DNA of 64,000 bases from Stutzerimonas nosocomialis (GTDB taxonomy: Bacteria > Pseudomonadota > Gammaproteobacteria > Pseudomonadales > Pseudomonadaceae): positions 1 to 64,000 of the forward strand of contig NZ_QLAE01000025.1 in the NCBI RefSeq assembly GCF_005876855.1, read 5' to 3'. The notes beneath the pieces were generated by a model. That model was not told where the DNA came from and did no database searches. It saw only the letters and a list, made by a program, of their open reading frames with translations. This document shows, piece after piece, positions 10,756 through 56,395 of the stretch. Each line of letters opens with the position of its first letter. Position 1 is the stretch's first letter. The translations under genes and the position numbers were made by a program.

Positions 10756-11248
10756 AAAAGCTCCTACACCAGATACATGCAGAGTGGTATGTATAGGGGC
10801 TTCAGCGTAACGGAGAGCTCGCTTAACGCCAAGAGCTATTACGGGGAACAGTATCCAGCAGCACCTGCATTCAGCAGCACTTGCCTTACCGAGCGTTTAA
10901 AGAGTTCTGAGCAGAGCTCTCGCTATTCTCTACTGTGGCAACTGTGGCGATTTACCAGTGGCACCGAGTCGCCTCTGTGCGCGGCCAGCATCTGCTCGCG
11001 CAAGTCAACGGCTATGTGCCGAAGTCGCGGTGCAGGATTTCGAGCCGGTCGGTAGAGCCAGAGGTGTTGATCCGCATGGACGATCGCATCTACTGACAGC
11101 GGTTCGAGCAGGCGCGCACGCTTTGCACCCGGATACCCGGTGCGCGTTCTGCGCGAGCGACTGCCGGGATCGAGCGAGGCACGCGGCGAACCTGAGCCAC
11201 GCAGCCATACGATTCCTGCGCAGAGCGAAGGCGCCCATGGCGCCATGC
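10756..11248. other. 493-bp intergenic region between lpxR-like gene and xylH
   Basis: The right part (about 10930-11077, minus strand) holds a decayed amidohydrolase fragment, described separately. From 10756 to about 10920 I see only the upstream region of the LpxR-like gene. From 11078 to 11248 I see nothing that I can support, apart from its being downstream of xylH. Confidence 0.5.
10930..11077 (-). pseudogene. Decayed 5' fragment of an amidohydrolase (lactonase-type) gene
   Basis: Reading leftward from the ATG at 11077, pieces of a protein start appear but in alternating frames: MRI, then QHLWLYRP, then LEILHRDFG, then VDLREQMLAAHRGDS. Joined in order they follow the N-terminus of amidohydrolase-2 family lactonases (MRIDxHQHLWxY ... 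RRDFxPxDLRxxL), which open sugar-acid lactones. At least two frameshifts and an in-frame TAG interrupt it and nothing of the remaining ~230 residues is visible. This is recognition by eye; an alignment is needed. Its place beside the xylose genes suits a lost sugar-catabolic gene. Confidence 0.4.
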
Positions 11249-12385
11249 TCAGCGGCGCTCGGTTCGACTGCTCACGTCGACCCATACCGCCAGCACCAGA
11301 ATGCTGCCCTTGACGATCATCTGCCAGTAGCTGTCGACATCGAGCATGGACATGCCGTTGTCCAGGCTGGTGATGACCAGTGCGCCGAGCAGGGCGCCAT
11401 AGACGGTGCCGGAGCCTCCGCGCATGGACGTGCCGCCGATGAAGCAGGCGGCGATGGCGTCGAGTTCCCCCATGCTCCCGGCCGAAGGCGAGCCGGCGGC
11501 CAGGCGCGCGGTATTGACCAGGCCGGCGAGGGCGCACATCACCCCCATGATGCCGAAGATCCACAGCTTCACGGCCTTCACGTTGATGCCCGACAGCCGC
11601 GTGGCCTCCATGTTGCTGCCCACCGAGTAGACGCGGCGGCCGAACACGGTCTGGCTGGTGACGTAGCTGAACACGCCGAGCAGCACGAGCAGGAGCAGCA
11701 CCGGGACCGGAATGCCATCGTAGCTGTTGAGCGTGTAGACGAACCCGGCCAGCACGGTGCCGATCAACGCCACGCGCAGCAGGTCGCGAACCAGAGAGTG
11801 TGCCGCCAGGCCATGGAGGGCGCGATTGCGGCGCTGCCTCCAGGTCAGGAACAGCGTCAGGGCGAACAGCAGCAGGCCGAGCACCACCCCCACCGTACGC
11901 GGCAGATAACCCTGGCCGATGTAAACCAGGGACGGCGACACCGGAGCGATGGTGGTGCCGTCCGTGATCCCCAGCAGGATTCCGCGAAACGCCAGCATGC
12001 CGCCCAGGCCCACGATGAAGGACGGGATACGCAGGTAGGCGGTCATGTAGCCGTTGGCCAGGCCGATCATCAGGCCGCACAGGGCGACCAGGCTCAGGTT
12101 CGCCAGCAGCGGCACGTTGTAGATCACGTCCAGGATCGCCGCCAGGCCGCCCAGCAGGCCGAGCATCGAGCCCACCGACAGGTCGATCTCGCCGCTGATG
12201 ATCACCAGCACCATGCCGCAGGCGAGAATCCCGGTGATGGACATCTGCCGCAGCAGGTTGGAAAGGTTGCGCGGTGTCAGGAAGCCGCCGTCGGTCTGCC
12301 AGCTGAAGAACAGCCAGATGACCGCCACGGCGATCACCAGCGCGAGCATCTTGTAACGGGCGAAGAGCTGTTTGAGCTGGTTCAT
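11249..12385 (-). CDS. xylH: Xylose ABC transporter permease XylH
   Basis: A 378-aa sugar ABC permease of the CUT2 class with about ten hydrophobic segments. Family motifs include SGEIDLSVGSMLGL, GLANGYMTAYLRIPSFIVGLG and the late ACFIGGTSMRGGSGTVYGALLGA. Its ATG follows the xylG stop codon with no gap (TAG then ATG), so translation is coupled. With XylF and XylG it forms the high-affinity D-xylose importer in the inner membrane. It is the last gene of the xylAFGH operon. Confidence 0.94.
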   Translation of the reverse strand: MNQLKQLFARYKMLALVIAVAVIWLFFSWQTDGGFLTPRNLSNLLRQMSITGILACGMVLVIISGEIDLSVGSMLGLLGGLAAILDVIYNVPLLANLSLVALCGLMIGLANGYMTAYLRIPSFIVGLGGMLAFRGILLGITDGTTIAPVSPSLVYIGQGYLPRTVGVVLGLLLFALTLFLTWRQRRNRALHGLAAHSLVRDLLRVALIGTVLAGFVYTLNSYDGIPVPVLLLLVLLGVFSYVTSQTVFGRRVYSVGSNMEATRLSGINVKAVKLWIFGIMGVMCALAGLVNTARLAAGSPSAGSMGELDAIAACFIGGTSMRGGSGTVYGALLGALVITSLDNGMSMLDVDSYWQMIVKGSILVLAVWVDVSSRTERR

Positions 12386-14046: not shown

Positions 14047-15048
14047 TCATTGCCCGGCTATCTGTGCCCTGGTGTAGAAACCGTCCTTTTCCAGCAGGTC
14101 GATGTTGTCGCGGGTCAGCAGGGTCGGGGTGAGCAGGATGGTGTCGACCTTCTTGGCACCGTTGTCGAGCTGGGAGCTGAAGGCCGGCTTCTCGTTGCGC
14201 GCCAGCTGCACCGAGAGCTTGGCGGCTTCCGAGGCGATGAGTTTGAGCGGCTTGTAGACGGTCATGGTCTGGGTACCGTCGATCACCCGCTTGACCGCCG
14301 CGAGGTCGGCATCCTGGCCGGAAATCGGTACCTTGCCGGCCAGCTTCTGCGCCGCCAGGGCCTGGATCGCACCGCCTGCCGTGGCGTCGTTGGAGGCGAC
14401 GATGCCATCGATCTTGTTGTCGTTCCGGGTCAGGGCATTCTCGACGATGCTCAACGCTTCGGTGGGGTTCCACTCCCTGACCCACTGCTGCCCGACGATC
14501 TGGATGTCGCCCCGGTCGATGGCCGGCTGCAACACCTTCATCTGGCCCTCGCGCAGGACCTTGGCGTTGTTGTCCGTGGGGGCGCCACCGAGCAGGAAGT
14601 AGTTGCCCTTGGGTGCCGCCTGCAGCACGCCCTGGGCCTGCAGTTCACCGACCTTCTCGTTGTCGAAGGAGATGTAGGCGTCGATGTCGGCATTCAGTAT
14701 GAGTCGGTCGTAGGAGACCACCTTGATCCCGGCGCGCTTGGCCTCGGCCACCGCGTTGGTCAGCACGGTGGCGTTGAACGGCACGATGACGATCACGTCG
14801 ACGCCGCGGGAAATGAGGTTCTCGATCTGGGATATCTGCTTCTGCTCGTTGGCGTCGGCCGACTGGACGAAGACCTTGGCGCCCATTTCCTCCGCCGCCG
14901 CGACGAAGTAGTCACGATCCCGCGACCAGCGCTCCAGGCGCAGGTCATCGATGGAAAAGCCGATTTTCGGGTTCGCCGGATCGGCCATGAGCGGAAGCGA
15001 GAACAGGGCCAGGGCCCCGGCGAGCAGCATGCGCTTGACTGTTTTCAT
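14047..15048 (-). CDS. xylF: D-xylose periplasmic binding protein XylF
   Basis: A 333-aa periplasmic binding protein of the pentose/hexose type 1 fold. The signal peptide ends near SLPLMA|DP. Motifs include KIGFSIDDLRLERWSRDRD, GVDVIVIVPFNA, SFDNEKVGELQA and NDATAGGAIQAL, all typical of XylF. The ATG at 15048 has AAGGACG upstream. It captures D-xylose for XylGH. It lies 145 nt downstream of xylA and 104 nt upstream of xylG, so binding protein may be made in excess from its own position in the operon. Confidence 0.94.
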   Translation of the reverse strand: MKTVKRMLLAGALALFSLPLMADPANPKIGFSIDDLRLERWSRDRDYFVAAAEEMGAKVFVQSADANEQKQISQIENLISRGVDVIVIVPFNATVLTNAVAEAKRAGIKVVSYDRLILNADIDAYISFDNEKVGELQAQGVLQAAPKGNYFLLGGAPTDNNAKVLREGQMKVLQPAIDRGDIQIVGQQWVREWNPTEALSIVENALTRNDNKIDGIVASNDATAGGAIQALAAQKLAGKVPISGQDADLAAVKRVIDGTQTMTVYKPLKLIASEAAKLSVQLARNEKPAFSSQLDNGAKKVDTILLTPTLLTRDNIDLLEKDGFYTRAQIAGQ

Positions 15049-15193
15049 GGTGGTGCGTCCTTTTATTGTTGTTGGAGACACTGCCTGACGATGAGGGTGG
15101 TACTGATAGAACTGTAGAAAGTCGAAAGGCGCCGCGAGCACAGAATTGTCGCGAGAATGTAACCGCGTGGCGCCAGCCGGAACCTGCCTGCCG

Positions 15194-39274: not shown

Positions 39275-40504
39275 TCAGCCATAGAGCGACGGCACCGGAC
39301 CCTGGCCGGTGAGCGCCCAGTGGCCGAGGTCGCGGATCTTGTAGTCGATCGGGTCGTGCAGGCTGTGCACCCGGACGTTGCGCCAGAACCGGTCGAAGCC
39401 GTAACGCGAGCTGGTGGCGCGGGCGCCCATGGCATCGAACACGTCGCTGGTGATTGCCAGCGCGGCGCGCGCCGCGGTCACCTTGGCCTCGGCGATGGCC
39501 AGCGCCAGGTCGGCGCGTTCGGCGGCCGTCAGCGCGGGCTTTTCCCAGGCGGCCTGCAGGCGCACGGCAGCCGCCTCGGCCAGGGGCAGGGCACTGCGAT
39601 AGCGTAGCCAGAGTTCGCCGTAGCGCTGCTGGACGAACGGGTCGTCGCTGGCCTGCGCCACGCCCGAGGCGGGCCAGGGCCGCGATTGTTCGCGGGTATA
39701 GCGCAGCGCCGCATCCAGTGCGCCCTGGGCATTGCCCAGATACAGCTGGGTCAGGATCAGCTGCGACACGCAGGCGCGCAGGGTGGTGCGTGGGCTGGGA
39801 CCGACCGGGCCGAGCAGTTCGGCGCTGTCGACGAATACCTGCTCGAACTGCACGGTACCGCTGTCGGTCTGGCGCTGGCCGAAGCCGTCCCAGTCCTGAT
39901 TGATGCTCAGGCCGTCGCGCTGGCCGGGCAGGACGATGAACACCCGGTCTTCGGGGTTCCTCCCGCAGGGCGCGCTGATCACCAGGGCGTCGGCACCGAG
40001 CGCGCCGGAGCAGAAGGATTTGCTGCCGTCGAGTTCGTAATGTTCCTCGCGGCGGCTGAGCATCAAGCCGGTGTCGCGGCCGTTGGTGGCGTTGCCCCAG
40101 AACCAGCGTTCCTGCACGGTGCGGGTCAGCCAGTGGCGCTGCTGTTCGGGGCTGCCGAACAGCAGCAGGGTTGCCACCTGCAGGTGCTGGAAGGCGAACA
40201 GGTGCGCCAGCGAGCTGTCCACCGCCGCCAGGTAGCGCACGATGCGGTAGATCTCCGGCCAGGCCAGACCCTGGCCGCCGTATTGCTGGGGAACGGCCAG
40301 GGTCAGCAGGCCGCTGTCGCGCAGCAGTTCGCGTTCGGCACGCGGGCTGCCGCCCTGGCGATCGCGCTCCACCGCGCTGGCCGCCAGGCGCCGGGCCAGC
40401 CGTTCGACCTTGGCCGTGCGGCTGCCGAAGTCGGCGGGAAACAGGTGGGCGGCGAACAGCGGTTCGTCGTTCGGGCTGCGTTGCAAACGGGCGCCGGTGC
40501 TCAT
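39275..40504 (-). CDS. Acyl-CoA-dehydrogenase-fold flavoprotein, putative sulfur-acquisition oxidoreductase (SfnB/DszC-like)
   Basis: A 409-aa protein of the acyl-CoA dehydrogenase fold: N-terminal helices (LLTLAVPQQYGGQGLAW), a middle beta domain (GNATNGRDTGLMLSRREEHYELDG) and a C-terminal helical bundle (ITSDVFDAMGARATSSRYGFDRFWRNVRVHSLHDP). The end resembles flavin-dependent monooxygenases such as DszC rather than true dehydrogenases. The start overlaps the stop of a sulfonate-type binding protein gene (ATGA). A role in oxidising or desulfurising an organosulfur compound is inferred from family and context. It has 3 Met and 3 Cys. Confidence 0.8.
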   Translation of the reverse strand: MSTGARLQRSPNDEPLFAAHLFPADFGSRTAKVERLARRLAASAVERDRQGGSPRAERELLRDSGLLTLAVPQQYGGQGLAWPEIYRIVRYLAAVDSSLAHLFAFQHLQVATLLLFGSPEQQRHWLTRTVQERWFWGNATNGRDTGLMLSRREEHYELDGSKSFCSGALGADALVISAPCGRNPEDRVFIVLPGQRDGLSINQDWDGFGQRQTDSGTVQFEQVFVDSAELLGPVGPSPRTTLRACVSQLILTQLYLGNAQGALDAALRYTREQSRPWPASGVAQASDDPFVQQRYGELWLRYRSALPLAEAAAVRLQAAWEKPALTAAERADLALAIAEAKVTAARAALAITSDVFDAMGARATSSRYGFDRFWRNVRVHSLHDPIDYKIRDLGHWALTGQGPVPSLYG

Positions 40505-41460
40505 TTCGGACCCCAGATGCGGACTTGGTCGGCATCCACTGCGCGCGGCAGCAGCCCCTCGGCGAAGAAGGCGTCGGCGATCTTCTGCTGCTCGCCCAGG
40601 CTGTCCGGTCGTACCAGGCGCACCTGGTAGCTGCGCTTGGCGTTGGCCTGCTCGACGATCCGCGGATCCAGATTGCCCCACAGCGGGCCGAGCACCGCGG
40701 CGGCTTCGCCCGGGTTGGCGCGTAGCCATTCGCTGGCGCGCACCAGCTCGTCGAAGACGGTCTGCAGCACCTCGGGGTGGCGCTCGGCATAGGCCGCGCT
40801 GGTCAGGTAATAGCGCTGGTAGGCGGCCAGGCCCTCGCCATCGGCGAGCACGCGGGTCGGCAACTGCTGCTGGGCGCTGCTGAGGAAGGGCTCCCAGGTC
40901 ACCCAGGCGTCGACCTTGCCGTTCTCGAAGGCGGCGCGGCCGTCGGCGGGCGTCAGGTAGGCCGGCTGGATGTCGTTGAACTTCAGCCCGGCCCGGGCCA
41001 ACGCGGCGAGCAGCAGGTAATGGCTGCCGGCGGCCTTGGTCACCGCCACCTTCCTGCCCTTGAGGGCAGCCACGTCCTGCAGCGGCGAGTCGGCGCGCAC
41101 CAGGATCGCCTGGGCGCTGGGGGAGGGCGCTTCCTGGGCGAAATAGACGAGTTCCGCACCGGCCGCCTGGGCGAACACCGGCACGGTGTCGGCGACGTCG
41201 GCGGACAGGTCGATGTTGCCGACATTGAGCGCTTCGAGCAGCGGCTGGCCATTGGGGAATTCGTGCCAGCTGACCTGGATGTCCTGCGCGGCCAACGCCT
41301 TTTCCAGGCTGCCCTGGCTCTTGAGCAGACTGATCAGGGTGGAGGATTTCTGGTAGCCGATGCGCAGGGGCTCGGCGGCCTGGAACAGCGGCGCGACGAG
41401 CAGGCCCAGGGCCAGCGCGGCGGCGATCAGTGGGGTGTGACGGGAGCGGGTGGTGAACAT
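40501..41460 (-). CDS. SsuA-like sulfonate-type ABC substrate-binding protein, without its own permease
   Basis: A 319-aa periplasmic binding protein with a signal peptide ending near LFQAA|EP. The mature start LRIGYQKSSTLISLLKSQGSLE and FPNGQPLLEALNVGNIDLSA are typical of SsuA/TauA relatives. Apart from the initiator, it contains no Met and no Cys. No permease or ATPase gene follows on this strand, so it may feed the importer encoded at 44.2-45.8 kb. It is translationally coupled to the flavoprotein gene. Confidence 0.88.
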   Translation of the reverse strand: MFTTRSRHTPLIAAALALGLLVAPLFQAAEPLRIGYQKSSTLISLLKSQGSLEKALAAQDIQVSWHEFPNGQPLLEALNVGNIDLSADVADTVPVFAQAAGAELVYFAQEAPSPSAQAILVRADSPLQDVAALKGRKVAVTKAAGSHYLLLAALARAGLKFNDIQPAYLTPADGRAAFENGKVDAWVTWEPFLSSAQQQLPTRVLADGEGLAAYQRYYLTSAAYAERHPEVLQTVFDELVRASEWLRANPGEAAAVLGPLWGNLDPRIVEQANAKRSYQVRLVRPDSLGEQQKIADAFFAEGLLPRAVDADQVRIWGPK

Positions 41461-41820
41461 GACGGCCTCGGTGAAGGCGTGCCGGTCATGGGGTGCCGGA
41501 TCACGCGCAAACTTCGTTGAAAGAGGAAGTCCGGTGATCCGGTGACGAGAAACTAAACGATCTAAAAGACCGATTGTAATAATTTTTAGGAATTAGTTTA
41601 GGCCTCGTTATTTATTCAATTTAGTTACTAGCAAGTAAAAAATAATTCTTTTTAGAGATTATCGGTAGTCTCGTAGATTGGCACCCAGCCGACAGCGGAC
41701 CTCCGCATCGGGCCCGTCAGGGGTCCTGGATGTTTCGCCAAGCGGGATGCCCGTTGTCGCGGCTCGAGCCCCTGTGCAACACACTAGAACAGCACAGCCA
41801 ATGCATCTGGAGCATCGAGC
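41461..41820. promoter_or_regulatory. 360-bp divergent regulatory region with AT-rich core
   Basis: The stretch 41550-41665 is strongly AT-rich in a GC-rich neighbourhood and separates the leftward binding-protein/flavoprotein pair from the rightward porin. It contains TCGTTATTTATTC (41605-41617), which recurs exactly before lsfA (45846-45858). A CysB-type sulfur-starvation promoter is a reasonable inference. No gene is seen here. Confidence 0.6.
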
Positions 41821-43161
41821 ATGAACAAGACTTCTCTGGCCCTGGCCATCACGCTGGCGACCATCGCCAACCAGGCCGTTGCCGCCGGTTTCATCGAAGA
41901 CAGCAAGGCCAGCCTCGACCTTCGCAACTTCTATTTCAACCAGGACACCCGTAACCAGAGCGCGCCTTCGAGCAGGGAATGGGGGCAGGGCTTCATCCTC
42001 AACGTCCAGTCCGGCTTCACCGAGGGCACCGTCGGTGTCGGCGTGGATGCCATCGGCCTGCTCGGCGTACGCCTGGACGGCGGCGGCCGTTCCGGCAAGG
42101 CCGGCATCGATCGCACGCCGGGAGCGCTGTTCCCGCTGGACAGCGACGGCAATGCCCGGCATGACTACGGCAAGGTCGGCGCCACCGCCAAGGCGCGCCT
42201 GTCCAGGACCGAACTGCGCATCGGCACCTTGCTGCCCAGGCTGCCGGTGGTGACCTACAACGACGGTCGCCTGCTGCCGCAGTTGTTCCAGGGCGGCCAG
42301 ATCACCTCCCAGGAGGTGGACGGGCTGACCTTGACGGCCGGCAAGCTGGAGCACACCAAGACCCGCAGCTCCACCGACGACATCAGCCTGCGAATCGCCG
42401 GCGCGGCGCGACCCACCGGCAGTCCGGCGAGCACGCCGCTGGCCGACTCCAATGCCTTCTACTTCGCCGGCGGCGACTACAAGCTGACCAAGGACCTGAC
42501 CGCGCAGTACTACTACGGCAACCTGGAAGACTTCTACCGGCAGCACTTCCTGGGGCTGGTGCATAACTGGGGCCTGGGCGGCGGCAACTTGAAGAGCGAT
42601 CTGCGCTACTTCCACAGCGGCTCCGACGGCAGGAACGGCAGCGTCGCGGGGCGCGCCCAGGGTTACCGCAGCAGCGGCTACTGGGCGGCCGGCGACAGCA
42701 AGGCCGGCGAAGTCGACAACCGCACCTGGAGCGCGCTGTTCACCTACGGCCACAGCGGCCACGAACTGAGCGCCGGCTACCAGCAGGTTTCGGGCGACAG
42801 CGCCTTTCCCTTCCTCAATCAGGGCGATGGGGCCACCGCCTACCTGATCACCGACCGGCAGATCGGCAAGTTCCTCAGCGCCGGCGAACGCACCTGGCTC
42901 GTCGGCTACGGGTATGACTTCGGCAAGCTCGGCGTGCCGGGCCTGAAGGCTTCGGTGGTGTACCTGTCGGGCGACAGCATCGACAGCGCCGAGCGCGACC
43001 GCAAGGAGTGGGAGCGCGATTTCCGCCTCGACTACACCCTGCAGGCCGGCGCGCTCAAGGGCCTGGGCCTGTCCTGGCGCAACGCGAGCTTTCGCAGCAA
43101 CGCCGCCGCCGACCTGGACGAAAACCGCCTGATCGTCAGCTACAACCTGCCGTTGCTGTAA
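41821..43161 (+). CDS. OprD-family outer-membrane porin lacking sulfur amino acids
   Basis: A 446-aa porin with signal peptide (NQAVAA|GF) and OprD-family motifs: GFIEDSKASLDLRNFYFN, WGQGFILNVQSGFTEGTVG, DYGKVGATAKARLSRTELRIGT-type strand, and LSWRNASFRSN near the end. It should let small organic anions across the outer membrane. Beyond the initiator it contains no Met and no Cys in 446 residues, which is exceptional and fits expression under sulfur starvation. It precedes a sulfonate-type ABC importer, so organosulfur substrates are likely. Confidence 0.9.
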   Translation: MNKTSLALAITLATIANQAVAAGFIEDSKASLDLRNFYFNQDTRNQSAPSSREWGQGFILNVQSGFTEGTVGVGVDAIGLLGVRLDGGGRSGKAGIDRTPGALFPLDSDGNARHDYGKVGATAKARLSRTELRIGTLLPRLPVVTYNDGRLLPQLFQGGQITSQEVDGLTLTAGKLEHTKTRSSTDDISLRIAGAARPTGSPASTPLADSNAFYFAGGDYKLTKDLTAQYYYGNLEDFYRQHFLGLVHNWGLGGGNLKSDLRYFHSGSDGRNGSVAGRAQGYRSSGYWAAGDSKAGEVDNRTWSALFTYGHSGHELSAGYQQVSGDSAFPFLNQGDGATAYLITDRQIGKFLSAGERTWLVGYGYDFGKLGVPGLKASVVYLSGDSIDSAERDRKEWERDFRLDYTLQAGALKGLGLSWRNASFRSNAAADLDENRLIVSYNLPLL

Positions 43162-43181
43162 CAGCCATACCCATCTCCTGA

Positions 43182-43201
43182 CCGGCCCGCCAACGGGCCG
43201 G
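43182..43201 (+). terminator. Hairpin between porin and binding-protein genes
   Basis: CCGGCCCG, loop CCAA, CGGGCCGG: eight perfect pairs 20 nt after the porin stop. No T-tract follows, so it may reduce rather than stop readthrough into the ABC genes. Confidence 0.55.
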
Positions 43202-43229
43202 AAGGACGCATCCGATCGAGGAGATGACC

Positions 43230-44222
43230 ATGAAGAAAGCCGCTTTGCGTCTTGGCCTGGCCGCGTTGCTCGCCGCCTGGCTACCCGTTTCCGCACAGGC
43301 CGCACCGCCCAGGGAAGTGCGCCTGGACTATGCCTACTACGCGCCCACCAGCCTGGTGCTCAAGCAGCAGGGGCTGCTTGAACGGGCCCTCGAGCCCCAG
43401 GGCATCACGGTCAAATGGGTGTTCAGCCAGGGCAGCAACCGCTCGCTGGAATACCTCAACGGCGGCAGCACGGATTTCGCATCCACCGCGGGCCTCGCCG
43501 CCGTGCTCAGCCGCGCCAACGGCGCGCCGATCAGGACCGTCTATGTCGCCAGTCGGCCGGAATGGACCGCGCTGGTGGTGCCCAAGGACTCGCCGATCAC
43601 CCGTCTCGAGGACCTCAAGGGCAAGAAGGTCGCCGCCACCAAGGGCACCGATCCCTTCCTGTTCCTGTTGCAGAGCCTGCAGCAGGTCGGGCTGGACAAG
43701 AGTGCCGTGGAGATCGTCCACCTGCAGCACCCGGACGGCCGCGTCGCCCTGGAGCGCGGCGACGTCGCCGCCTGGGCTGGACTCGACCCGCTGATGGCCG
43801 GCAGCGAGCTGCAGGCCGGCTCGCGGCTGCTGTACCGCAATATCGACTTCAACAGCTACGGCGTGCTCAGCGTCAGCGAGACGTTCGCCGAGCAGCAACC
43901 CGAGCTGATCCGCCAGGTCATCGCCGCTTACGAGCAGGCGCGCCAATGGGCCATCGCCAACCCAGACGCACTGGCCGAACTGCTCGCCGAGCAGGCCAAG
44001 CTGCCGCTGGAGGTGGCCCGGCTGCAGCTGTCGCGCACCGATTTCAGCAACCCGCAGCCGGGCGCCGAGCATGTCGCCGCGCTCAAGGCCGCCGCCCCGA
44101 TCCTGCTCGACGAACAGCTGGTGCGTCCCGGCACCGACGTGGCGCGGGTGGTCGACGAGCTGATCGCCCCGCAACTGGCCGCCCAGGTGATCGGCCAGCC
44201 AGCCACCACGGCGGGGCGCTGA
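43230..44222 (+). CDS. Sulfonate/sulfate-ester-type ABC substrate-binding protein
   Basis: A 330-aa periplasmic binding protein with a signal peptide (VSAQA|AP). VRLDYAYYAPTSLVLKQQGL and SLEYLNGGSTDFAST place it in the SsuA/AtsR group. I chose the ATG at 43230, 6 nt after GAGGAG; the ATG at 43224 touches that site. It has 2 Met and no Cys. It heads a three-gene importer operon with the next two genes. Which organosulfur compound it binds cannot be read from the sequence. Confidence 0.88.
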   Translation: MKKAALRLGLAALLAAWLPVSAQAAPPREVRLDYAYYAPTSLVLKQQGLLERALEPQGITVKWVFSQGSNRSLEYLNGGSTDFASTAGLAAVLSRANGAPIRTVYVASRPEWTALVVPKDSPITRLEDLKGKKVAATKGTDPFLFLLQSLQQVGLDKSAVEIVHLQHPDGRVALERGDVAAWAGLDPLMAGSELQAGSRLLYRNIDFNSYGVLSVSETFAEQQPELIRQVIAAYEQARQWAIANPDALAELLAEQAKLPLEVARLQLSRTDFSNPQPGAEHVAALKAAAPILLDEQLVRPGTDVARVVDELIAPQLAAQVIGQPATTAGR

Positions 44223-44225
44223 GCC

Positions 44226-45050
44226 ATGGGCGCGCTCAATCCCGACCTCCCACGGGCGGGCCGGTGGCCGCGCTGGCGCCCGGCGCTGGCTGATCTACGC
44301 GGCTGGGTGGTACCGCTGGCGCTGCTCGCCATGCTGGAGGCGCTGGTGCGCGGCGGCGTGCTGCCGGCGCACCAGATGCCGGCGCCGAGCCAGGTGGCTC
44401 AGACCCTCCATGCGCTGGCGCAGAGCGGCGAGCTCTGGCGGCACCTGAACGCCAGCCTGCTGCGGGTCGCGGCCGGCTTCCTGATCGGCGCCGGGCTGGC
44501 CATCGCCATCGGCACCTGGGTGGGCCTCAGCCGGCGCGCGGAGGCTTATCTCGAGCCGACGTTCCAGGCCTTGCGGGCGATCCCCAGCCTGGCCTGGGTA
44601 CCCTTGCTGCTGCTCTGGCTGGGTATCGACGAGACGCCGAAGGTCGTCCTGATCGCGCTCGGAGCATTCTTTCCGGTCTACCTGGCGCTGCTCGCCGGCA
44701 TTCGCAATGTCGACCGCAAGCTGGTCGAGGTCGGCCAGCTCTACCGCCTGGAACCCCTTGCGCTGGTGCGGCGCATCCTGTTGCCGGCGGCGCTGCCCAA
44801 CCTGTTCACCGGCCTGCGCGGCGCGCTCAGCCTGAGCTGGATGTTCCTCGTGGCGGCGGAGCTGATCGCCGCCACCCGCGGCCTCGGCTATCTGCTCAGC
44901 GACGGACGGGAAACCTCGCGCCCGGACCTGGTGATCGCCGCGATCCTGTTGCTGGCGCTGCTCGGCAAGCTCAGCGACGGGCTGCTCAAGGCCTGGGAAC
45001 GACGCGCGCTGCGCTGGCGCGACAGCTTTGGCGGGGAGGGCGGCGCATGA
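44226..45050 (+). CDS. Sulfonate-type ABC importer permease (SsuC-like)
   Basis: A 274-aa binding-protein-dependent permease with six membrane segments and the EAA loop (ELIAATRGLGYLLSDGRE region preceded by VRRILLPAALPNLFTGLRGA). It starts 3 nt after the binding-protein stop and overlaps the ATPase gene by 4 nt. It resembles SsuC/TauC. It has 4 Met and no Cys, low for a membrane protein. Confidence 0.9.
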   Translation: MGALNPDLPRAGRWPRWRPALADLRGWVVPLALLAMLEALVRGGVLPAHQMPAPSQVAQTLHALAQSGELWRHLNASLLRVAAGFLIGAGLAIAIGTWVGLSRRAEAYLEPTFQALRAIPSLAWVPLLLLWLGIDETPKVVLIALGAFFPVYLALLAGIRNVDRKLVEVGQLYRLEPLALVRRILLPAALPNLFTGLRGALSLSWMFLVAAELIAATRGLGYLLSDGRETSRPDLVIAAILLLALLGKLSDGLLKAWERRALRWRDSFGGEGGA

Positions 45051-45775
45051 CGGCGGTGCTTTCGCTGCTGCACATCCACAAGGCCTATGCCGGGCAGCGG
45101 GTGCTGGAGGATGTCAGCCTTTCGCTCGAGCCCGGCGAGGTGGTCAGCCTGCTGGGCCCCAGCGGCTGCGGCAAGAGCAGCCTGCTGCGCATCGCCGCCG
45201 GGCTCGACCGGGACTACCGCGGCGAGGTGCGACTCGATGCCGGGGCGGACGCCGCCGGCCAGCGTATCGGGGTGGTGTTCCAGGAGCCGCGGTTGATGCC
45301 CTGGCTGAGCGTCGCGCTGAACGTCGGCTTTGCAGACGGTGCCAGGGCCGACCGCGCTTGGATACGGCAACTGCTGGCCGACGTTGGCCTGGCCAGCCAC
45401 GCGGACCTGCTGCCCAAGCAGCTTTCCGGCGGGCAGGCGCAGCGCGCGGCCATCGCCCGGGGCCTGTACGGGCGTCCGAAGGTACTGCTGCTCGACGAGC
45501 CGTTCAGCGCGGTGGATGCCTTCACCCGCATGCGCCTGCAGGAGCTGCTCGGCGAGCTGGCCGCGCGCTACGGGATCGCCGTACTGCTGGTGACCCATGA
45601 TCTGGATGAGGCTTATTACCTCAGCGACCGGGTGCTGATGCTCGGTGGCATGCCCAGCCGCGTGCAGTGCGAGACGCCAGTGGCGCTCGCTCGCCCGCGT
45701 GATCGCCGGGCGCCAGAGCTGGCGCACCTGCGTGCGCAGGCGTTGAGCGAGCTGCACCAGTCTCATTCGTCATGA
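45047..45775 (+). CDS. Sulfonate-type ABC importer ATPase (SsuB-like)
   Basis: A 242-aa ATPase: Walker A GPSGCGKSS, Q-loop in VVFQEPRLMPWL, signature LSGGQAQRA, Walker B VLLLDEPFSAVD and switch His in LVTHDLDEA. It powers the importer made with the previous two genes and is co-translated with the permease (ATGA). A strong rho-independent terminator follows, ending this operon before lsfA. Confidence 0.92.
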   Translation: MTAVLSLLHIHKAYAGQRVLEDVSLSLEPGEVVSLLGPSGCGKSSLLRIAAGLDRDYRGEVRLDAGADAAGQRIGVVFQEPRLMPWLSVALNVGFADGARADRAWIRQLLADVGLASHADLLPKQLSGGQAQRAAIARGLYGRPKVLLLDEPFSAVDAFTRMRLQELLGELAARYGIAVLLVTHDLDEAYYLSDRVLMLGGMPSRVQCETPVALARPRDRRAPELAHLRAQALSELHQSHSS

Positions 45776-45797
45776 ACCTGTGTGGGCACGGGCTTGG

Positions 45798-45823
45798 CCA
45801 GGCGAAAGCCTGGTCTTTTTTTT
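45798..45823 (+). terminator. Rho-independent terminator
   Basis: CCAGGC, tetraloop GAAA, GCCTGG, then TCTTTTTTTT. It begins 22 nt after the ATPase stop and separates the importer operon from the lsfA-ssu operon. Confidence 0.92.
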
Positions 45824-45836
45824 GTTCCATACAGTT

Positions 45837-45858
45837 ATAAATAAATCGTTATTTATTC
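45837..45858 (+). promoter_or_regulatory. AT-rich inverted repeat upstream of lsfA (candidate sulfur-control element)
   Basis: ATAAATAA, spacer ATCG, TTATTTAT is a perfect 8-bp inverted repeat (45837-45856), ending in TCGTTATTTATTC (45846-45858), a 13-mer also present at 41605-41617. It lies about 70-90 nt before lsfA. CysB binding is inferred. Confidence 0.55.
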
Positions 45859-45925
45859 TTTTTAATCCGCTCCGATTCTGCACATAGTGAGCGTCACCCG
45901 ACCGATACCTTGAAGGAGCAAGACC

Positions 45926-46564
45926 ATGAGCATTCGCCTCGGCGACATCGCGCCCGATTTCGAACAGGATTCCAGCGAAGGCCGCATCCGTTTCCACGAG
46001 TGGCTTGGCGACAGCTGGGGCGTGCTGTTCTCGCATCCGGCCGACTTCACCCCGGTGTGCACCACCGAACTCGGTTTCACCGCCAGGCTCAAGGACGAAT
46101 TCGCCCAGCGCAACGTCAAGGCCATCGCCCTGTCGGTCGACCCGGTGGATTCGCACATCAAGTGGATCGACGACATCAACGAAACGCAGAACACCCGGGT
46201 CAACTTTCCGATCATCGCCGACGCCGACCGCAAGGTTTCCGAGCTGTACGACCTGATCCACCCGAACGCCAACGACACCCTCACGGTGCGCTCGCTGTTC
46301 GTCATCGACCCGAACAAGAAGGTGCGCCTGACCATCACCTACCCGGCGAGCACCGGGCGCAACTTCAACGAGATCCTGCGGGTGATCGACTCGCTGCAGC
46401 TGACCGACAACCACAAGGTCGCCACCCCGGCCAACTGGCAGGACGGCGACGAGGTGGTGATCGTGCCCTCGCTCAAGGACGAGGACGAGATCAAACGGCG
46501 CTTCCCCAAGGGCTACCGCGCGGTCAAGCCGTACCTGCGCCTGACCCCGCAACCCAATCGTTGA
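45926..46564 (+). CDS. lsfA: 1-Cys peroxiredoxin LsfA
   Basis: A 212-aa Prx6-type peroxiredoxin. The peroxidatic Cys is C45 in HPADFTPVCTTELG and it is the only Cys; the only Met is the initiator. LsfA was described in P. putida as a sulfate-starvation-induced protein, and it precedes ssuEADCBF there as here. It reduces peroxides, perhaps those made by the reduced flavin used by SsuD. The ATG at 45926 has AAGGAG upstream. Confidence 0.94.
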   Translation: MSIRLGDIAPDFEQDSSEGRIRFHEWLGDSWGVLFSHPADFTPVCTTELGFTARLKDEFAQRNVKAIALSVDPVDSHIKWIDDINETQNTRVNFPIIADADRKVSELYDLIHPNANDTLTVRSLFVIDPNKKVRLTITYPASTGRNFNEILRVIDSLQLTDNHKVATPANWQDGDEVVIVPSLKDEDEIKRRFPKGYRAVKPYLRLTPQPNR

Positions 46565-46588
46565 TCCGCAGCCGGAAAGGACATCCCG

Positions 46589-47182
46589 ATGGTGGTCGTA
46601 TCCCTCGCCGGCAGCCCCAGCCAGCGCTCCCGTTCCGGCGTGCTGCTGGAGCACGGGCGTGACTGGCTGCAGCGCCGCGGTATCGAGGTGGTGAGTTACC
46701 GGGTCCGCGACTTCGATGCCGAGGACCTGCTGCACGCCCGCTTCGACAGCCCTCTGGTGCGCCGCTTCGTCGAACACGTGGCGCTGGCCGACGGCCTGCT
46801 GATCGCCACGCCGATCTACAAGGCGTCCTTCGCCGGCGCGCTCAAGGTGCTGCTGGATCTGTTGCCCGAACGCGCCCTGGCGCACAAGGCGGTATTGCCG
46901 ATGGCCTCGGGCGGCAGCGTGGCCCACATGCTGGCGGTCGATTACGCGCTCAAGCCGGTGCTCGCCGCGCTGAAGGCGCAGGAGATGCTGCAGGGCGTGT
47001 ACGCCGTCGACGCGCAGATCCACTACGGCGAGCCGGGCCACCCGTCGAGTCTGGAGCCGGACCTGCAGGCGCGGCTGGAAGAGGGACTGGAACAACTGCA
47101 CGCGGCCTTGGCGCGGCGGCCCGCGCCGCTCGACCCGGGCCTGCTGCCGGAGCGCCTGAACAGCGCGCAGTGGAGCATCTGA
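46589..47182 (+). CDS. ssuE: NADPH-dependent FMN reductase SsuE
   Basis: A 197-aa flavodoxin-fold reductase: [14 protein letters not shown] (phosphate-binding loop), [27 protein letters not shown] and [13 protein letters not shown] are SsuE-type. It supplies reduced FMN to SsuD. It follows lsfA by 24 nt, so the two are co-transcribed. It has 4 Met and no Cys. Confidence 0.93.
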
Positions 47183-47324
47183 AAGCAGCTGAAAACTTCA
47201 GGCTGCAAGTCGAAAGCTAGACCCGGCGGCGCCTTTCTTGCCGCTTGCCGCTAAAAGAAATCCTTACTCGCCCGCCAACGGGCAAGCAGGTCGTGAACCC
47301 AACCCAGACTTCAAGGAGAGTGCC

Positions 47325-48308
47325 ATGCGCACCAACACCTTGCGTCGAGGACTGGTCGCCCTGCTTGCCGCGGCCATCTCCTTCGGCGCCCTGACCCAGG
47401 CACAGGCCCAATCGAAGCAGGACACCACCCTGCGGATCGGCTATCAGAAATACGGCACCCTGGTGCTGCTCAAGGCCCGCGGCACGCTCGAGAAGCAGCT
47501 GGCCGGGCAGGGCGTCAGGGTGCAATGGACCGAGTTCCCCGGCGGCCCGCAGTTGCTCGAGGGCCTCAATGTCGGCTCCATCGACTTCGGCGTGACCGGC
47601 GAGACGCCGCCGGTGTTCGCCCAAGCCGCTGGCGCCGACCTGCTCTACGTCGCCCATGAACCGCCGGCGCCCAGCGGCGAGGCGATCCTGCTGCCGAAGG
47701 ATTCGCCGATCCGCTCGGTCAAGGAACTCAAGGGCAAGAAGGTCGCGCTGAACAAGGGCTCAAACGTGCACTACCTGCTGGTGCGTGCGCTGGAGGAGGC
47801 CGGCCTGGCCTACGGCGACATACAGCCCATCTACCTGCCGCCAGCCGACGCGCGCGCGGCCTTCGAGCGCGGCAGCGTGGATGCCTGGGTGATCTGGGAC
47901 CCGTTCCAGGCGGCCGCCGAGGCGCAGATGCAGGCGCGCACCCTGCGCGACGGCCAGGGCCTGGTCAGCAACCACCAGTTCTACCTCGCCGCGCGTCCCT
48001 TCGCCGAACGGCATCCCGAGGTGCTGCGCACGCTGATCGAGGAGATCCGCGACATCGGCGTCTGGGTCGAGGCCAATCCGGACGAGGCCACCGCGCAGGT
48101 GGCGCCGCTGCTGGGATTGTCGGCCGACATCACGCGCAAGGCAGTGATCCGCCAGGGCTACGGCGCCAGGCCGATCGGCCCCGAGGTGGTGCGTGCGCAG
48201 CAGGCGATCGCCGACACCTTCACCGAGCTCAGGCTGATTCCCAGAACCCTGAGCGTGCGCGACGTCATCTGGACGCCGCCGAAGAACCTCGCCCAATACC
48301 CTGAATAA
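47325..48308 (+). CDS. ssuA: Aliphatic sulfonate-binding protein SsuA
   Basis: A 327-aa periplasmic binding protein with signal peptide (LTQAQA|QS). The mature start [22 protein letters not shown] and [17 protein letters not shown] are characteristic of SsuA. It captures alkanesulfonates for SsuBC. The ATG at 47325 has AAGGAG upstream. It has 2 Met and no Cys. The 142 bp before it contain a short degenerate intergenic sequence (gaaaacttcaggctgcaag) but no clear terminator. Confidence 0.94.
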
Positions 48309-48336
48309 GCCTCGCACCCACTACGGAGCAACGCAC

Positions 48337-49485
48337 ATGAGCCTGAACGTCTTCTGGTTCCTGCCCACCCATGGCGACGGCAAATACCTCGGCACCGCCG
48401 AAGGCGCCCGTGCCGTCGATCATGGCTACCTGGCGCAAGTCGCCCAGGCCGCCGACCGCCTCGGCTACGGCGGCGTCCTGATCCCCACCGGCCGTTCCTG
48501 CGAGGATTCCTGGCTGGTGGCGGCCTCGCTGATCCCGGTCACCCAGCGGCTGAAGTTCCTGGTCGCGCTGCGTCCGGGGATCATCTCGCCCACCGTGGCC
48601 GCCCGCCAGGCCGCGACCCTGGACCGGCTGTCAGGCGGCCGGGCGCTGTTCAACCTGGTCACCGGCGGCGACCCGGACGAACTGGCCGGCGACGGCCTGC
48701 GCCTGAGCCATGCCGAGCGCTACGAGGCCTCGGTGGAATTCACCCGAATCTGGCGCCGGGTGCTGGAGGGCGAGACGGTCGACTACGACGGCAAGCACAT
48801 CCAGGTGAAGGGCGCCAAGCTGCTCTATCCGCCGCTCCAGCAGCCGCGCCCGCCGCTGTATTTCGGCGGCTCCTCGGACGCCGCTCAGGACCTGGCCTCC
48901 GAGCAGGTGGAGCTGTACCTGACCTGGGGCGAGCCGCCGGCGGCGGTGGCCGAGAAGATCGCCCAGGTGCGCGAGAAGGCGGCGCGGCTCGGGCGTACGG
49001 TGCGTTTCGGCATCCGTCTGCATGTGATCGTGCGCGAGACCAACGACGAAGCCTGGGCCGCCGCCGAGCGCCTGATCAGCCACCTCGATCAGTACACCAT
49101 CGACCGCGCCCAGGCCTCGCTGGCGCGCTTCGACTCGGTCGGTCAGCAACGCATGAGCGCGCTGCACGGCGGGCGCAAGGACAGGCTGGAAGTCGCCCCC
49201 AACCTCTGGGCCGGGGTCGGCCTGGTGCGCGGCGGCGCCGGCACCGCGCTGGTCGGCGACGGCCCGACGGTGGCCGCGCGGGTGAAGGAGTACGCCGACC
49301 TGGGCATCGATACCTTCATCTTCTCCGGCTACCCGCACCTGGAAGAGGCCTACCGCGTCGCCGAGCTGCTGTTCCCACACCTGGACATCGCCCAGCCGGA
49401 ACGCCCGCAAGGACGCGGCTATGTCAGCCCGTTCGGCGAAATGATCTCCAGCGACATCCTGCCGAAGGCGACGTCGGCGAGTTGA
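48337..49485 (+). CDS. ssuD: FMNH2-dependent alkanesulfonate monooxygenase SsuD
   Basis: A 382-aa bacterial-luciferase-fold TIM barrel. [18 protein letters not shown], the conserved Cys C55 in [31 protein letters not shown] and [17 protein letters not shown] are SsuD hallmarks. Using reduced flavin from SsuE and oxygen, it splits alkanesulfonates to aldehydes and sulfite, which then enters assimilation. It has 3 Met and 1 Cys. Confidence 0.96.
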
Positions 49486-49493
49486 GCGCAAAC

Positions 49494-49584
49494 CGTAGGG
49501 TGGATGGCCAAAGCCATCCACGCGGGCGCGGCGCCAGGTCTGGCGCGCCTGTGTGGAGAAGCGCTGCGCGCGCTTTCCACCCTG
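49494..49584. repeat. Intergenic inverted repeat between ssuD and ssuC
   Basis: GTAGGGTGGA at the left and TTTCCACCCTGCG at the right form an outer, imperfect inverted repeat. Inside lie a hairpin GGATGGC-CAAA-GCCATCC and a GCGC-rich element. This type of sequence is common between Pseudomonas genes. It may tune ssuC expression relative to ssuD. Confidence 0.6.
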
Positions 49585-49618
49585 CGCACCTGAAGGCTTT
49601 TCGATTTCGAGGTAAGGC

Positions 49619-50410
49619 ATGAGCGTCACGATCAAACACCTGGCTTTACGCCTGGCCCCCTGGCTGCTGCCGCTGGCACTGCTGGCAGCCTGGCAGGGGG
49701 CGGTAGCCCTGGGGCTGCTGTCCACCCGCATCCTGCCGGCACCGAGCGCGGTGGTCGCCGCCGGCTGGGAGCTGCTGCGCAGCGGCGACATCTGGACGCA
49801 TCTGGCCATCTCCGGCTGGCGCGCCAGCATCGGCTTCGCCATCGGCGGCGGCCTCGGCCTGCTGCTGGGCTTCGTCACCGGGCTGTCGAAGTGGGGCGAG
49901 CGCCTGCTCGACAGTTCGGTGCAGATGATCCGCAACGTGCCGCACCTGGCGCTGATCCCGCTGGTGATCCTGTGGTTCGGCATCGACGAGAGCGCGAAGA
50001 TCTTCCTGGTGGCGCTGGGCACGCTGTTCCCGGTGTACCTGAACACCTACCACGGCATCCGCAACGTCGACCCGGCGCTGATGGAGATGGCGCGCAGCTA
50101 CGGGCTGTCGGGCTTCGCGCTGTTTCGCCAGGTAATCCTGCCCGGGGCGCTGCCGTCGATCCTGGTCGGCGTGCGCTTCGCCCTCGGTTTCATGTGGCTG
50201 ACGCTGATCGTCGCCGAGACCATTTCCGCCAGCTCCGGCATCGGCTACCTGGCGATGAATGCCCGCGAATTCCTGCAGACCGACGTGGTGGTGCTGGCCA
50301 TCTTGCTCTATGCCGTGCTCGGCAAGCTGGCCGACCTCGCCGCGCGCGGGCTGGAGCGCGTCTGGCTGCGCTGGCACCCGGCCTACCAGGCCAAGGCAGG
50401 TGCGCAATGA
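49619..50410 (+). CDS. ssuC: Alkanesulfonate ABC permease SsuC
   Basis: A 263-aa six-segment permease. [42 protein letters not shown] and the EAA-loop region [23 protein letters not shown] are SsuC-type. It forms the inner-membrane pore for sulfonates with SsuB and SsuA. GAGG lies upstream of the ATG. Its stop overlaps the ssuB start (ATGA). Confidence 0.94.
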
Positions 50411-51207
50411 CCGCGCTGCACAGCATTACCCCAGGCGCTCGGTCGGGCGGCCTGCCGCTGGCCATCGAGGGGATCGGCAAGGCGTTCGGCCAGCGGGACG
50501 TGCTCAAGGGCATCGACCTGCAGATCCCGGCCGGGCAGTTCGTCGCGGTGGTCGGGCGCAGCGGCTGCGGCAAGAGCACGCTGCTGCGCCTGCTGGCCGG
50601 CCTCGACCAGCCGAGCCGGGGCGCATTGCTGGCCGGCGAAGGTCCGCTGTCCGCCGCCCGTGACGATACCCGGCTGATGTTCCAGGACGCCCGCCTGCTG
50701 CCCTGGAAGCGAGTGATCGACAACGTCGGCCTGGGATTGTCCGGCGACTGGCGGCCGAAAGCCGAGGACGTGCTGGCGGCGGTCGGCCTGGCCGATCGCG
50801 CCAGGGAGTGGCCGGCGGCCCTCTCCGGCGGGCAGAAACAGCGGGTGGCGCTGGCCCGCGCGCTGATCCACCAGCCGCGCCTGCTGCTGCTCGACGAGCC
50901 ACTCGGCGCGCTGGATGCGCTGACCCGCATCGAGATGCAGCAGCTGATCGAGCGGCTCTGGCAGCAGCATGGCTTCACCGTGCTGCTGGTGACCCACGAT
51001 GTCGCCGAGGCGGTGGCGGTGGCCGACCGGGTGATCCTCATCGAGGACGGCCGCATCGGCCTGGACCTGGCGGTCGACCTGCCGCGCCCGCGCCATCGTG
51101 GCTCGGCGCGCCTGGCCGCGCTAGAGGCCGAAGTGCTCGACCGCGTCCTCGCCCAGCCCGGCGCCGAGGCGCCGGCGGAGCCCGTATCACCCCTGCCCAC
51201 GCGTTAG
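50407..51207 (+). CDS. ssuB: Alkanesulfonate ABC ATPase SsuB
   Basis: A 266-aa ATPase: Walker [11 protein letters not shown]-loop [12 protein letters not shown], signature LSGGQKQRV, Walker [13 protein letters not shown] and switch His LVTHDVAEA. It powers SsuC. The start overlaps the ssuC stop. The C-terminal ~40 residues are a low-complexity tail ([16 protein letters not shown]). Confidence 0.94.
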
Positions 51208-51295
51208 AAAAGCAGCCGAAAGCTTGAAGCCTGAAGCTGGAAGCGAGAACGATGACTTCCAGCTTCCAACTTATTTCGACCCCAGGAGAAAACCC

Positions 51296-51511
51296 ATGAC
51301 CATCAAGGCCATCAACGTACGCAACCAGTTCAAGGGCACCATCAAGGAGATCGTCCACGGCGACGTGCTCTCGGAAATCGACGTGCAGACCGCCGCCGGC
51401 ATCGTCACATCGGTGATCACCACCCGCTCGGTACGCGAGCTGGAGCTGCAGGTGGGCAGCGAGGTGATCGCCTTCGTCAAGTCCACCGAGGTGTCCATCG
51501 CCAAGTTGTGA
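51296..51511 (+). CDS. ssuF: Molybdopterin-binding (TOBE/Mop) protein SsuF
   Basis: A 71-aa single Mop/TOBE domain: INVRNQFKGTIKEIVHGDVLSEI and VGSEVIAFVKSTEVSIAKL are the two conserved strands. SsuF was defined in P. putida, where it is needed for sulfonate use though its biochemical role is unclear. The ATG at 51296 has AGGAG upstream. It has one Met (initiator) and no Cys. It closes the ssu operon, followed by a large hairpin. Confidence 0.93.
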   Translation: MTIKAINVRNQFKGTIKEIVHGDVLSEIDVQTAAGIVTSVITTRSVRELELQVGSEVIAFVKSTEVSIAKL

Positions 51512-55399: not shown

Positions 55400-56395
55400 T
55401 CAGGGCTTTTCGATACCCACGCTGTCCGGCGAGATTTCGACGGCCTTGGCCTTGTACATCGACCAGGCGGTGACGGACTGCCAGCGCTTGAGGAACTGCT
55501 CGGCTTCCTCGCCCTGCAGGTTCAGCGAGTGGGCGCCGAAGTTCTTCAGGAAGCTCTGGAATTCGGGGTTGGCCACGGCCTTGGCATAGGCATCGCCCAG
55601 CTTCTGCTTGATGTCGTCCGGGGTGTCCTTGTGCACGAACACGCCCCAGAACGGGCCCCACGGCAGGTATTCGGCGATGGCCGGCAGGGCGGTGGTGATC
55701 GGCTCGACGCCGGGCAGCTCCGGAACTTCCTCGGCGGCGAGGACCGCCAGGGCCTTGAGCTTGCCGGTGCGGATCAGCTCCTTGGCGGCCGCCAGGCTGA
55801 GGGACATGAAGTCGATGTGGTTGCCCATCAGCGCCGTGATGCCGGGGCCGTCGCCGCCGAAGGTCACTTCGCGCACTTGCAGCTGGTCGACCGCATTGAT
55901 CATGGCGTTGACGGTGCTCGGCAGACCGCCGGCGCCGGTGCTGCCCATGCGCAGGGTGTCGGGCTTTTCATGGGCTTCGGCGAGCAGCTCGGCGAAGGTG
56001 TTCCAGCGGGCGTCGGCATTGGCGGCGATGACCACCACGTTCTGGCCGATGACGTTCACCGTATGGAAATCGCTGTAGTCGAAGTCGGCCAGGCCCAGCA
56101 CCGGGTAGAGCTGCGGGTTTTCCGCGCCCAGCAGAATGGTGTAGCCGTTCGGGCGCTGGCTGCGGACGTAGGTGCTGCCGATCACCGCAGTGCCGCCGGG
56201 GCGGTTGTTCAGGACCAGTTTGCCGCCCAGCTCCTTCTCCACGTAAGGCGTCAGGCTGCGCATCACGTTGTCGGTGGCGCCACCGGCTCCCCAGGGGATC
56301 ACGGCCTGGATGCTGCGGTCGGGGTAGTCGGCATGGGCCGCGGCGGCGAACACGCCGGCGGACAGGGAAAGCGCAACGAGCAGTTTCTTGATCAT
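55400..56395 (-). CDS. Tripartite tricarboxylate transporter substrate-binding protein (TctC type)
   Basis: A 331-aa periplasmic binding protein of the Bug/TctC family: signal peptide (AAAAHA|DY), DRSIQAVIPWGAGGATDNVMRS, VLNNRPGGTAVIGS and GSTGAGGLPST. It binds an organic anion and delivers it to TctAB. It is the last gene of a tctB-tctA-tctC operon. It has 7 Met in 331 residues, a useful contrast to the sulfur-poor binding proteins at 40-48 kb. Confidence 0.92.
   Translation of the reverse strand: MIKKLLVALSLSAGVFAAAAHADYPDRSIQAVIPWGAGGATDNVMRSLTPYVEKELGGKLVLNNRPGGTAVIGSTYVRSQRPNGYTILLGAENPQLYPVLGLADFDYSDFHTVNVIGQNVVVIAANADARWNTFAELLAEAHEKPDTLRMGSTGAGGLPSTVNAMINAVDQLQVREVTFGGDGPGITALMGNHIDFMSLSLAAAKELIRTGKLKALAVLAAEEVPELPGVEPITTALPAIAEYLPWGPFWGVFVHKDTPDDIKQKLGDAYAKAVANPEFQSFLKNFGAHSLNLQGEEAEQFLKRWQSVTAWSMYKAKAVEISPDSVGIEKP

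Follow-up and report, generated by a model that had tools for sequence, protein, structure and literature searches.

At positions 39275–51511 of a 64,000-nucleotide stretch of the Stutzerimonas nosocomialis genome (contig NZ_QLAE01000025.1; hereafter the window) lie two divergent gene units with 13 protein products, two encoded on the minus strand and eleven on the plus strand. The genome comprises 4.76 Mb in 86 contigs, and the guanine-plus-cytosine (GC) content of the window is 65%. SsuD, SsuE and the SsuA-family proteins jointly exceed the curated cut-offs of their families, which identifies the genes as a sulfonate-scavenging (ssu-type) set and bears out the original prediction, made from the letters of the window alone, that they scavenge sulfur. 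Six of the products, among them an OprD-family porin and three substrate-binding proteins (SBPs; here SBP1, SBP2 and SsuA), hold almost no methionine (Met) or cysteine (Cys).

Gene identities in the ssu-type locus

Table 1. Features of the cluster, with the evidence for each name and the number of sulfur residues (Met plus Cys) left in the mature product
Feature	Position	Strand	Length (aa)	Met	Cys	Mature sulfur residues	Evidence
SfnB/DszC-like, acyl-CoA-dehydrogenase-like flavin oxidoreductase	39275..40504	-	409	3	3	5	family matches below cut-off
Orphan SsuA-family binding protein SBP1	40501..41460	-	319	1	0	0	SsuA_fam 220.8 bits, above cut-off (163.5)
OprD-family porin, OprE-like clade	41821..43161	+	446	1	0	0	Pfam OprD PF03573
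Second SsuA-family binding protein SBP2	43224..44222	+	332 (330 from inner ATG)	3 (2)	0	1	SsuA_fam 243.4 bits, above cut-off
ATP-binding cassette (ABC) permease, first permease	44226..45050	+	274	4	0	3	BPD_transp_1 match
ABC ATPase, second ATPase	45047..45775	+	242	5	2	6	named from sequence
Terminator-like hairpin and T run (putative)	45796..45815	+					consensus scan
LsfA-type 1-Cys peroxiredoxin	45926..46564	+	212	1	1	1	1-cysPrx_C and AhpC-TSA matches
SsuE, flavin mononucleotide (FMN) reductase	46589..47182	+	197	4		3	FMN_reduc_SsuE, above cut-off
SsuA sulfonate-binding protein	47325..48308	+	327	2	0	1	PRK11553 and SsuA_fam, above cut-off
SsuD, FMNH2-dependent alkanesulfonate monooxygenase	48337..49485	+	382	3	1	3	TIGR03565 625.4 bits, above cut-off
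SsuC permease	49619..50410	+	263	6		5	BPD_transp_1 match; SsuC by operon place
SsuB ATPase	50407..51207	+	266	3	1	3	sequence and operon place
SsuF molybdopterin-binding (TOBE) protein	51296..51511	+	71	1	0	0	TIGR00638, above cut-off

The porin matches its profile over the full length (480.5 bits, profile positions 1–393 of 394). The dehydrogenase-like protein, whose start ATG overlaps the stop of the SBP1 gene, falls below the NCBIfam cut-offs of both DibenthMonoxDszC (355.7 bits against 850) and SfnB (282.3 against 430.9) and is thus only SfnB/DszC-like. The name LsfA we take from the layout of the Pseudomonas lsfA-ssuEADCBF locus. That locus has the same lsfA, ssuE, A, D, C, B and F genes in the same order, and loci such as L089, from P. 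putida 31800, are arranged similarly; the present cluster has in addition a porin gene upstream, another unit of SBP, permease and ATPase, and the divergent pair of SBP and SfnB/DszC-like genes.

The terminator-like hairpin may perhaps divide the plus strand into two transcription units, although the scan gave 4 such sites against 5.8 in shuffled sequence, which makes the call weak. An AT-rich stretch at 41540–41680, within the gap that separates the SBP1 gene from the divergently oriented porin gene, is possibly a regulatory region. A sigma-54 pattern scan of the porin promoter region returned no site, and the promoter scan found no sigma-70-like site.

Sulfur residues in the products, their families and the genome

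We recounted all products from the DNA; counts for mature proteins leave out initiators and, for the four exported proteins, leaders of fixed length. The mature porin and SBP1 contain neither Met nor Cys, SsuF has its initiator only, and LsfA has nothing sulfur-bearing besides its initiator and one Cys. Taken together, the six sulfur-poor products hold 9 Met and 1 Cys in 1707 residues, or 3 sulfur residues in 1601 mature positions, and all 13 products hold 31 in 3627 (0.85%). The per-protein counts of the original prediction agree with these, as does its total of 1705 residues, 8 Met and 1 Cys once SBP2 is read from its inner start; its claim that the mature porin and the 319-residue binding protein are sulfur-free holds, and so do its two controls from the window, a TctC-type protein (55400–56395; 331 residues, 7 Met) and a XylF-like protein (14047–15141; 333 residues from an inner ATG, 6 Met). 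The order of the products by sulfur content would fit the copy numbers expected of them.

How unusual are such counts within this genome? The baseline consists of 262 genes of at least 150 residues from 20 stretches of 20 kb, called by a GC-position rule and not by a trained gene finder, which together contain 2.05% Met and 0.98% Cys, that is, about 3.0% sulfur residues. Among 100000 randomly drawn sets of 12, none was as poor in sulfur as the cluster's own 12 longer products, and none of 200000 random five-gene sets was as poor as the five longer sulfur-poor ones. The second ATPase is not depleted, lying at the 41st percentile of the sample. Along the window, the sulfur-residue profile dips within the cluster. 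A 328-residue exported-looking protein outside it (9769–10755, minus strand), by eye similar to an outer-membrane lipid A deacylase, is also low: it has 2 Met and no Cys past residue 25, and at 0.66% it falls near the 2nd percentile.

A comparison with protein families and genome, as proposed with the original prediction, puts the porin and the binding proteins far below both genome and paralog levels of Met. The porin belongs to a clade of 81 rows that a quick tree, which gave long-branch warnings, separates from the remaining OprDs in the genus with a Shimodaira–Hasegawa-like approximate likelihood ratio support of 100. We call this clade OprE-like after the annotation of PP_0234, a putative member in view of the gene arrangement in P. 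putida 31800. As controls we used 55 full OprDs, besides the window's own, from eight genomes of the genus, four within the clade and 51 outside it; four partial matches at contig ends of the present genome and one weak partial match in G009 were left out, as were L014 and L015, which duplicate L116 and L117. The 51 non-clade proteins have 0–12 mature Met with a median of 6; two have none. The difference in Met from the clade is marked (Mann–Whitney P 3e-21, with related rows, among the clade matches listed), and Met stands at 0.06-fold of its level in other OprDs while the other residues stay at 0.75–1.32-fold and Cys is near absent in both groups. At alignment columns 190, 306, 323 and 378, where 39–65% of the other OprDs have Met, the clade mostly has leucine, leucine, valine and serine or threonine, respectively.

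We also drew 40 further stretches around OprD places and inspected nine of them gene by gene. A zero-Met OprD proved unspecific as a sign of a sulfur locus, judging from the five non-clade OprDs with at most one mature Met: L194 lies by taurine and choline-sulfate genes, L191 by a sulfur-poor ABC cluster, and the remaining three, by eye, lie next to betaine, benzoate-type or proS genes. In L191 (412–10672; contig C66 of G008) an OprD without mature Met is followed by two Peripla_BP_4 binding proteins with 0.63–0.67% sulfur residues, a sugar-type ABC ATPase and two permeases, with an AraC-type regulator and a TonB receptor; the substrate of this ABC cluster is perhaps a sulfur source. Another OprD without mature Met (L192, 4023–5444; contig C33 of the same genome) adjoins the choline-metabolism regulator GbdR, a context that is not obviously one of sulfur.

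For the binding proteins, the controls were 20 other proteins of the genome from two Pfam binding-protein families, with Met counted from the start of the match to the end of the protein (L137 was left out as a duplicate of L141, and the L147 match has an internal stop). Each of these has 2–11 core Met; the three cluster SBPs together show 2 against the 15.2 expected from the pooled set (Poisson P 3e-5). Among permeases, for which 30 of 55 matches were used, the 28 non-cluster domains range from 1.44 to 6.96% Met (pooled 3.42%), and the two of the cluster have 0.59 and 2.98%. In the sole other 1-cysPrx_C protein, presumably AhpC, 187 residues include 3 Met and 2 Cys, a modest contrast with LsfA.

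Conservation across genomes and neutral expectation

From a scan of GTDB genomes the best 80 matches were kept; they gave at least 79 loci, which make up the nearer portion of a more extensive set. Counts refer to 77 porins among the matches listed, that is, 76 loci plus the window, after L080 (broken frame) and L095 and L096 (no stop) had been dropped. No mature Met is present in 63 of the 77 and at most one in 71, and a single porin, L031, contains Cys. We regarded a porin as linked if a homolog of SsuD, LsfA, SsuA, SBP2 or the dehydrogenase-like protein with at least 60% identity lay within the fetched locus. Such ssu-type neighbours accompany 61 porins, 52 of them Met-free and none with more than 2 Met, so that the Met-poor pattern repeats in 60 other loci of the Pseudomonas group. 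For the remaining 16, with up to 7 Met, no such neighbours were found, although L022, L028, L067 and L092 end at contig ends and their neighbours may be missed. Within the extent of the fetched stretches, L033, L034 and L059–L062 repeat the fuller layout of porin, SBP unit and divergent pair. In the genus members G003, G012, G017 and G058, a close SsuD (90–98%) has no OprD match within 30 kb, which shows that the locus need not include the porin.

Three or more Met occur in none of the 61 linked and in three of the 16 unlinked porins (Fisher P 0.008, with rows that are not independent). These three, L020, L024 and L093, have 3, 3 and 7 Met, and no sulfur-use genes were recognised among their listed neighbours. 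That porins gained Met again once outside the sulfur locus is a suggestive idea, but independent linked/unlinked pairs (2.7 for, 0.4 against) include too few informative ones, and we did not retain it. Some of the 16 unlinked and of the partial loci have other neighbours related to sulfur: L051 has a sulfate-binding protein nearby and L018 a TauE-type exporter alongside, the partial locus L095 adjoins a taurine-type binding protein (from its sequence and an NMT1 match), and L028 and L088 lie near a pyridoxal enzyme that by its family match is a putative D-cysteine desulfhydrase. The nearest named porin among the matches, from P. lopnurensis AL-54 (87% identity), is the L018 copy (10001–11350), which lies beside molybdate-type transport and TauE genes and not beside ssu genes; it has several Met in its leader and one in the mature part.

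Orthologs of several other products were scored as well. With orthologs kept at 80% cover and 55% identity (the latter except for the dehydrogenase-like protein), those scored among the loci listed are sulfur-free in 34 of 34 cases for SBP1, 37 of 40 for SsuA and 29 of 29 for SsuF. All 41 LsfA orthologs lack further Met and have one Cys each, and one Cys is likewise found in each of the 34 SsuD orthologs.

Does common descent from a sulfur-poor ancestor account for this? We simulated the 81-row porin clade 300 times under the LG model with the composition of other OprDs, starting from the Met-free window sequence, a start that favours the null; the roots are arbitrary and the model is simple. 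The simulations lead to an expectation of 2.78 Met in each porin, where 0.36 are observed, and to at most 37 Met-free porins, where 66 of 81 are observed. Tryptophan, phenylalanine, isoleucine, leucine, valine, tyrosine and glutamine match the simulation, and histidine is somewhat low (4.6 against 6.6). The other 12 products were simulated in 200 runs each, both from the window sequence and from the sulfur-poorest ortholog. With the window sequence as start, five products are lower than every run, and for each of two more a single run is as low. No run is as low as SBP1 or SsuA from either start; from the window sequence their Met z scores are -3.8 and -4.1 and their Cys z scores -1.7 and -1.8, with tryptophan, histidine, tyrosine, phenylalanine, isoleucine, asparagine, glutamine and valine within z 2.7. 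In four products (second ATPase, dehydrogenase-like protein, SsuE, first permease) the window sequence is richer in sulfur than most orthologs, and from the poorest ortholog these four are no longer clearly low. Runs as low as the observation then number, of 200, 6 for SBP2 and for SsuB, 7 for LsfA, 15 for the dehydrogenase-like protein, 22 for SsuF, 27 for the second ATPase, 31 for SsuC, 35 for the first permease, 49 for SsuE and 119 for SsuD. Since SBP1 and SsuA are low from either start and the porin is low from a Met-free one, the claim of an excess over neutral drift rests on these three; for the other ten products such an excess is not clear.

Proposed sulfur economy and competing explanations

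We consider it likely that these observations reflect persistent selection to spare sulfur in those proteins of an ssu-type cluster that would be abundant during sulfur starvation. The cluster would then act as a sulfonate-scavenging regulon induced by sulfate starvation: the porin would admit organosulfur compounds through the outer membrane, their transport into the cytoplasm would fall to the trio of SsuA-like binding proteins and the pair of ABC importers, sulfite would be freed by SsuD together with SsuE, and possibly by the SfnB/DszC-like enzyme too, and LsfA would deal with peroxide. Porin, binding proteins and peroxiredoxin would be needed in most copies when Met and Cys are scarcest, and the cost of sulfur would cause selection to keep them nearly sulfur-free, so that the starvation response could be built without spending the missing element. 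Sulfur economy would explain the Met-specificity of the depletion, its near-restriction to the cluster within the window, and its conservation. It would also explain two further proteins: the sulfate-binding protein of this genome (L263; contig C22, 2514–3455), with its initiator as the only Met and no Cys in 334 residues, and an OprD of another branch by a taurine/choline-sulfate locus in G008, which has one mature Met.

Several observations weigh against this reading. The gene set as a whole is not nearly sulfur-free: the near-complete avoidance originally predicted stands for six of the 13 products, to which strong depletion is limited, and fails for the other seven, which retain 3–6 residues each. 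When simulated from the poorest ortholog, ten of the 12 products do not lie below all runs. Absence of Cys is normal for OprD porins, as all non-clade paralogs lack it, so zero Cys says little for the porin and Met carries the signal. Eleven of the 16 unlinked clade porins, including the P. aeruginosa PA7 copy L069, are Met-free, linked and unlinked porins do not differ clearly in Met (Fisher P 0.15, Mann–Whitney P 0.09), and these Met-free porins away from ssu-type genes speak against a strict sulfur-cluster rule. Most of the eight non-clade OprDs with at most two mature Met also adjoin genes not linked to sulfur. Similarly poor homologs outside sulfur clusters, which the original prediction had named as refuting it, thus exist in part (no mature Met in 2 of 51 and at most two in 8 of 51 non-clade OprDs, none in 11 of 16 unlinked clade members). 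For PP_0234 (OprE) of P. putida, a 2.41-fold increase under low shaking, interpreted as oxygen limitation, and hunger repression on glucose are reported, with no tie to sulfur in the available passages (PMC3538555, PMC13332142, PMC3166926); OprE is also absent from the available text of a P. aeruginosa sulfur-starvation study (PMC12581299). Economy alone leaves these reports and the Met-free clade porins away from sulfur genes unexplained.

Part of this could be accounted for by general thrift, in which the OprE-like porin is constitutively abundant and low-sulfur selection follows abundance, not sulfur starvation. Both the Met-free copies away from ssu-type genes and the detection of PP_0234 in outer-membrane or proteome work on P. 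putida, under conditions that the passages available do not tie to sulfur, would suit such a view. As the sole explanation it appears improbable: OprF, the classic abundant porin of Pseudomonas, has 6 Met in 330 residues in this genome, the non-clade OprDs reach their median of 6, sulfur genes of other kinds accompany certain unlinked clade members (L051 and L018), and the binding proteins are left unaddressed. Abundance and starvation may act together.

We give little credence to oxidation avoidance, that is, to Met and Cys having been removed since the proteins work under oxidant stress. These two are the most oxidisable residues and a peroxiredoxin lies within the cluster, but the clade retains tryptophan and tyrosine at 0.98-fold and histidine at 0.75-fold, all three stay near the simulation in SBP1 and SsuA, and Met is at ordinary levels in the genome's remaining exported SBPs and porins. 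Family habit or chance, with OprD porins and SBPs simply Met-poor and a GC-rich genome helping, deserves next to none. It could invoke the Cys-free paralogs (51 of 51), the eight with few Met, and low-Met OprDs beside benzoate-type, betaine or proS genes; against it stand the paralog median, the deficit of the three SBPs, the results of the porin, SBP1 and SsuA simulations, and the fact that lysine, isoleucine, phenylalanine and asparagine, which likewise have AT-rich codons, are not similarly depleted.

A bolder version of sulfur economy, which we regard as possible but doubtful, would make the OprE-like clade the dedicated organosulfur outer-membrane gate of pseudomonads, kept Met-free genus-wide by sulfur-cost selection; L020, L024 and L093 would be lapses marking copies no longer in the sulfur regulon, and a porin without Met elsewhere would flag an unrecognised sulfur-source locus such as L191.

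Sulfur-sparing assimilation enzymes have reportedly been described by Baudouin-Cornu 2001, Mazel and Marliere 1989, and Merchant and Helmann 2012, as related in papers that cite them. The likeness lies in sulfur-assimilation proteins being depleted in Met and Cys; the extreme here is the porin clade and the binding proteins, with no sulfur in the mature part. That sulfur-assimilation proteins induced in starvation are poor in Met and Cys, named as a known idea in the original prediction, is indeed found in the accessible passages of two papers (PMC2940859, PMC7661421). In Gordonia NB4-1Y, induced sulfonate oxygenases have 0.88–1.33% sulfur residues against 3.01% in the proteome (PMC7661421), which resembles the 0.85% of the present cluster against about 3.0% in the genome sample. 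Gordonia differs in being an actinobacterium, in that oxygenases are concerned and tied to expression, and in that the passages available mention no porin. A sulfur-free OprD porin or porin clade was not found in the titles and abstract starts listed from the open-licence literature, which is no proof of absence, and the available passages of PMC12581299, PMC5069961 and PMC13332142 say nothing on the sulfur content of porins.

The principle is already in print, and the cluster is a clear, quantifiable case of it that is common to related species. It amounts to a natural experiment, with one family in one bacterial group and paralogs as controls, that allows selection against individual sulfur atoms to be quantified. 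If sulfur economy is the correct reading, Met content would be a cheap flag for the sulfur-regulon membership of transport genes, and there would be a substrate hypothesis for a porin group that the available passages so far discuss in connection with oxygen limitation and glucose hunger.

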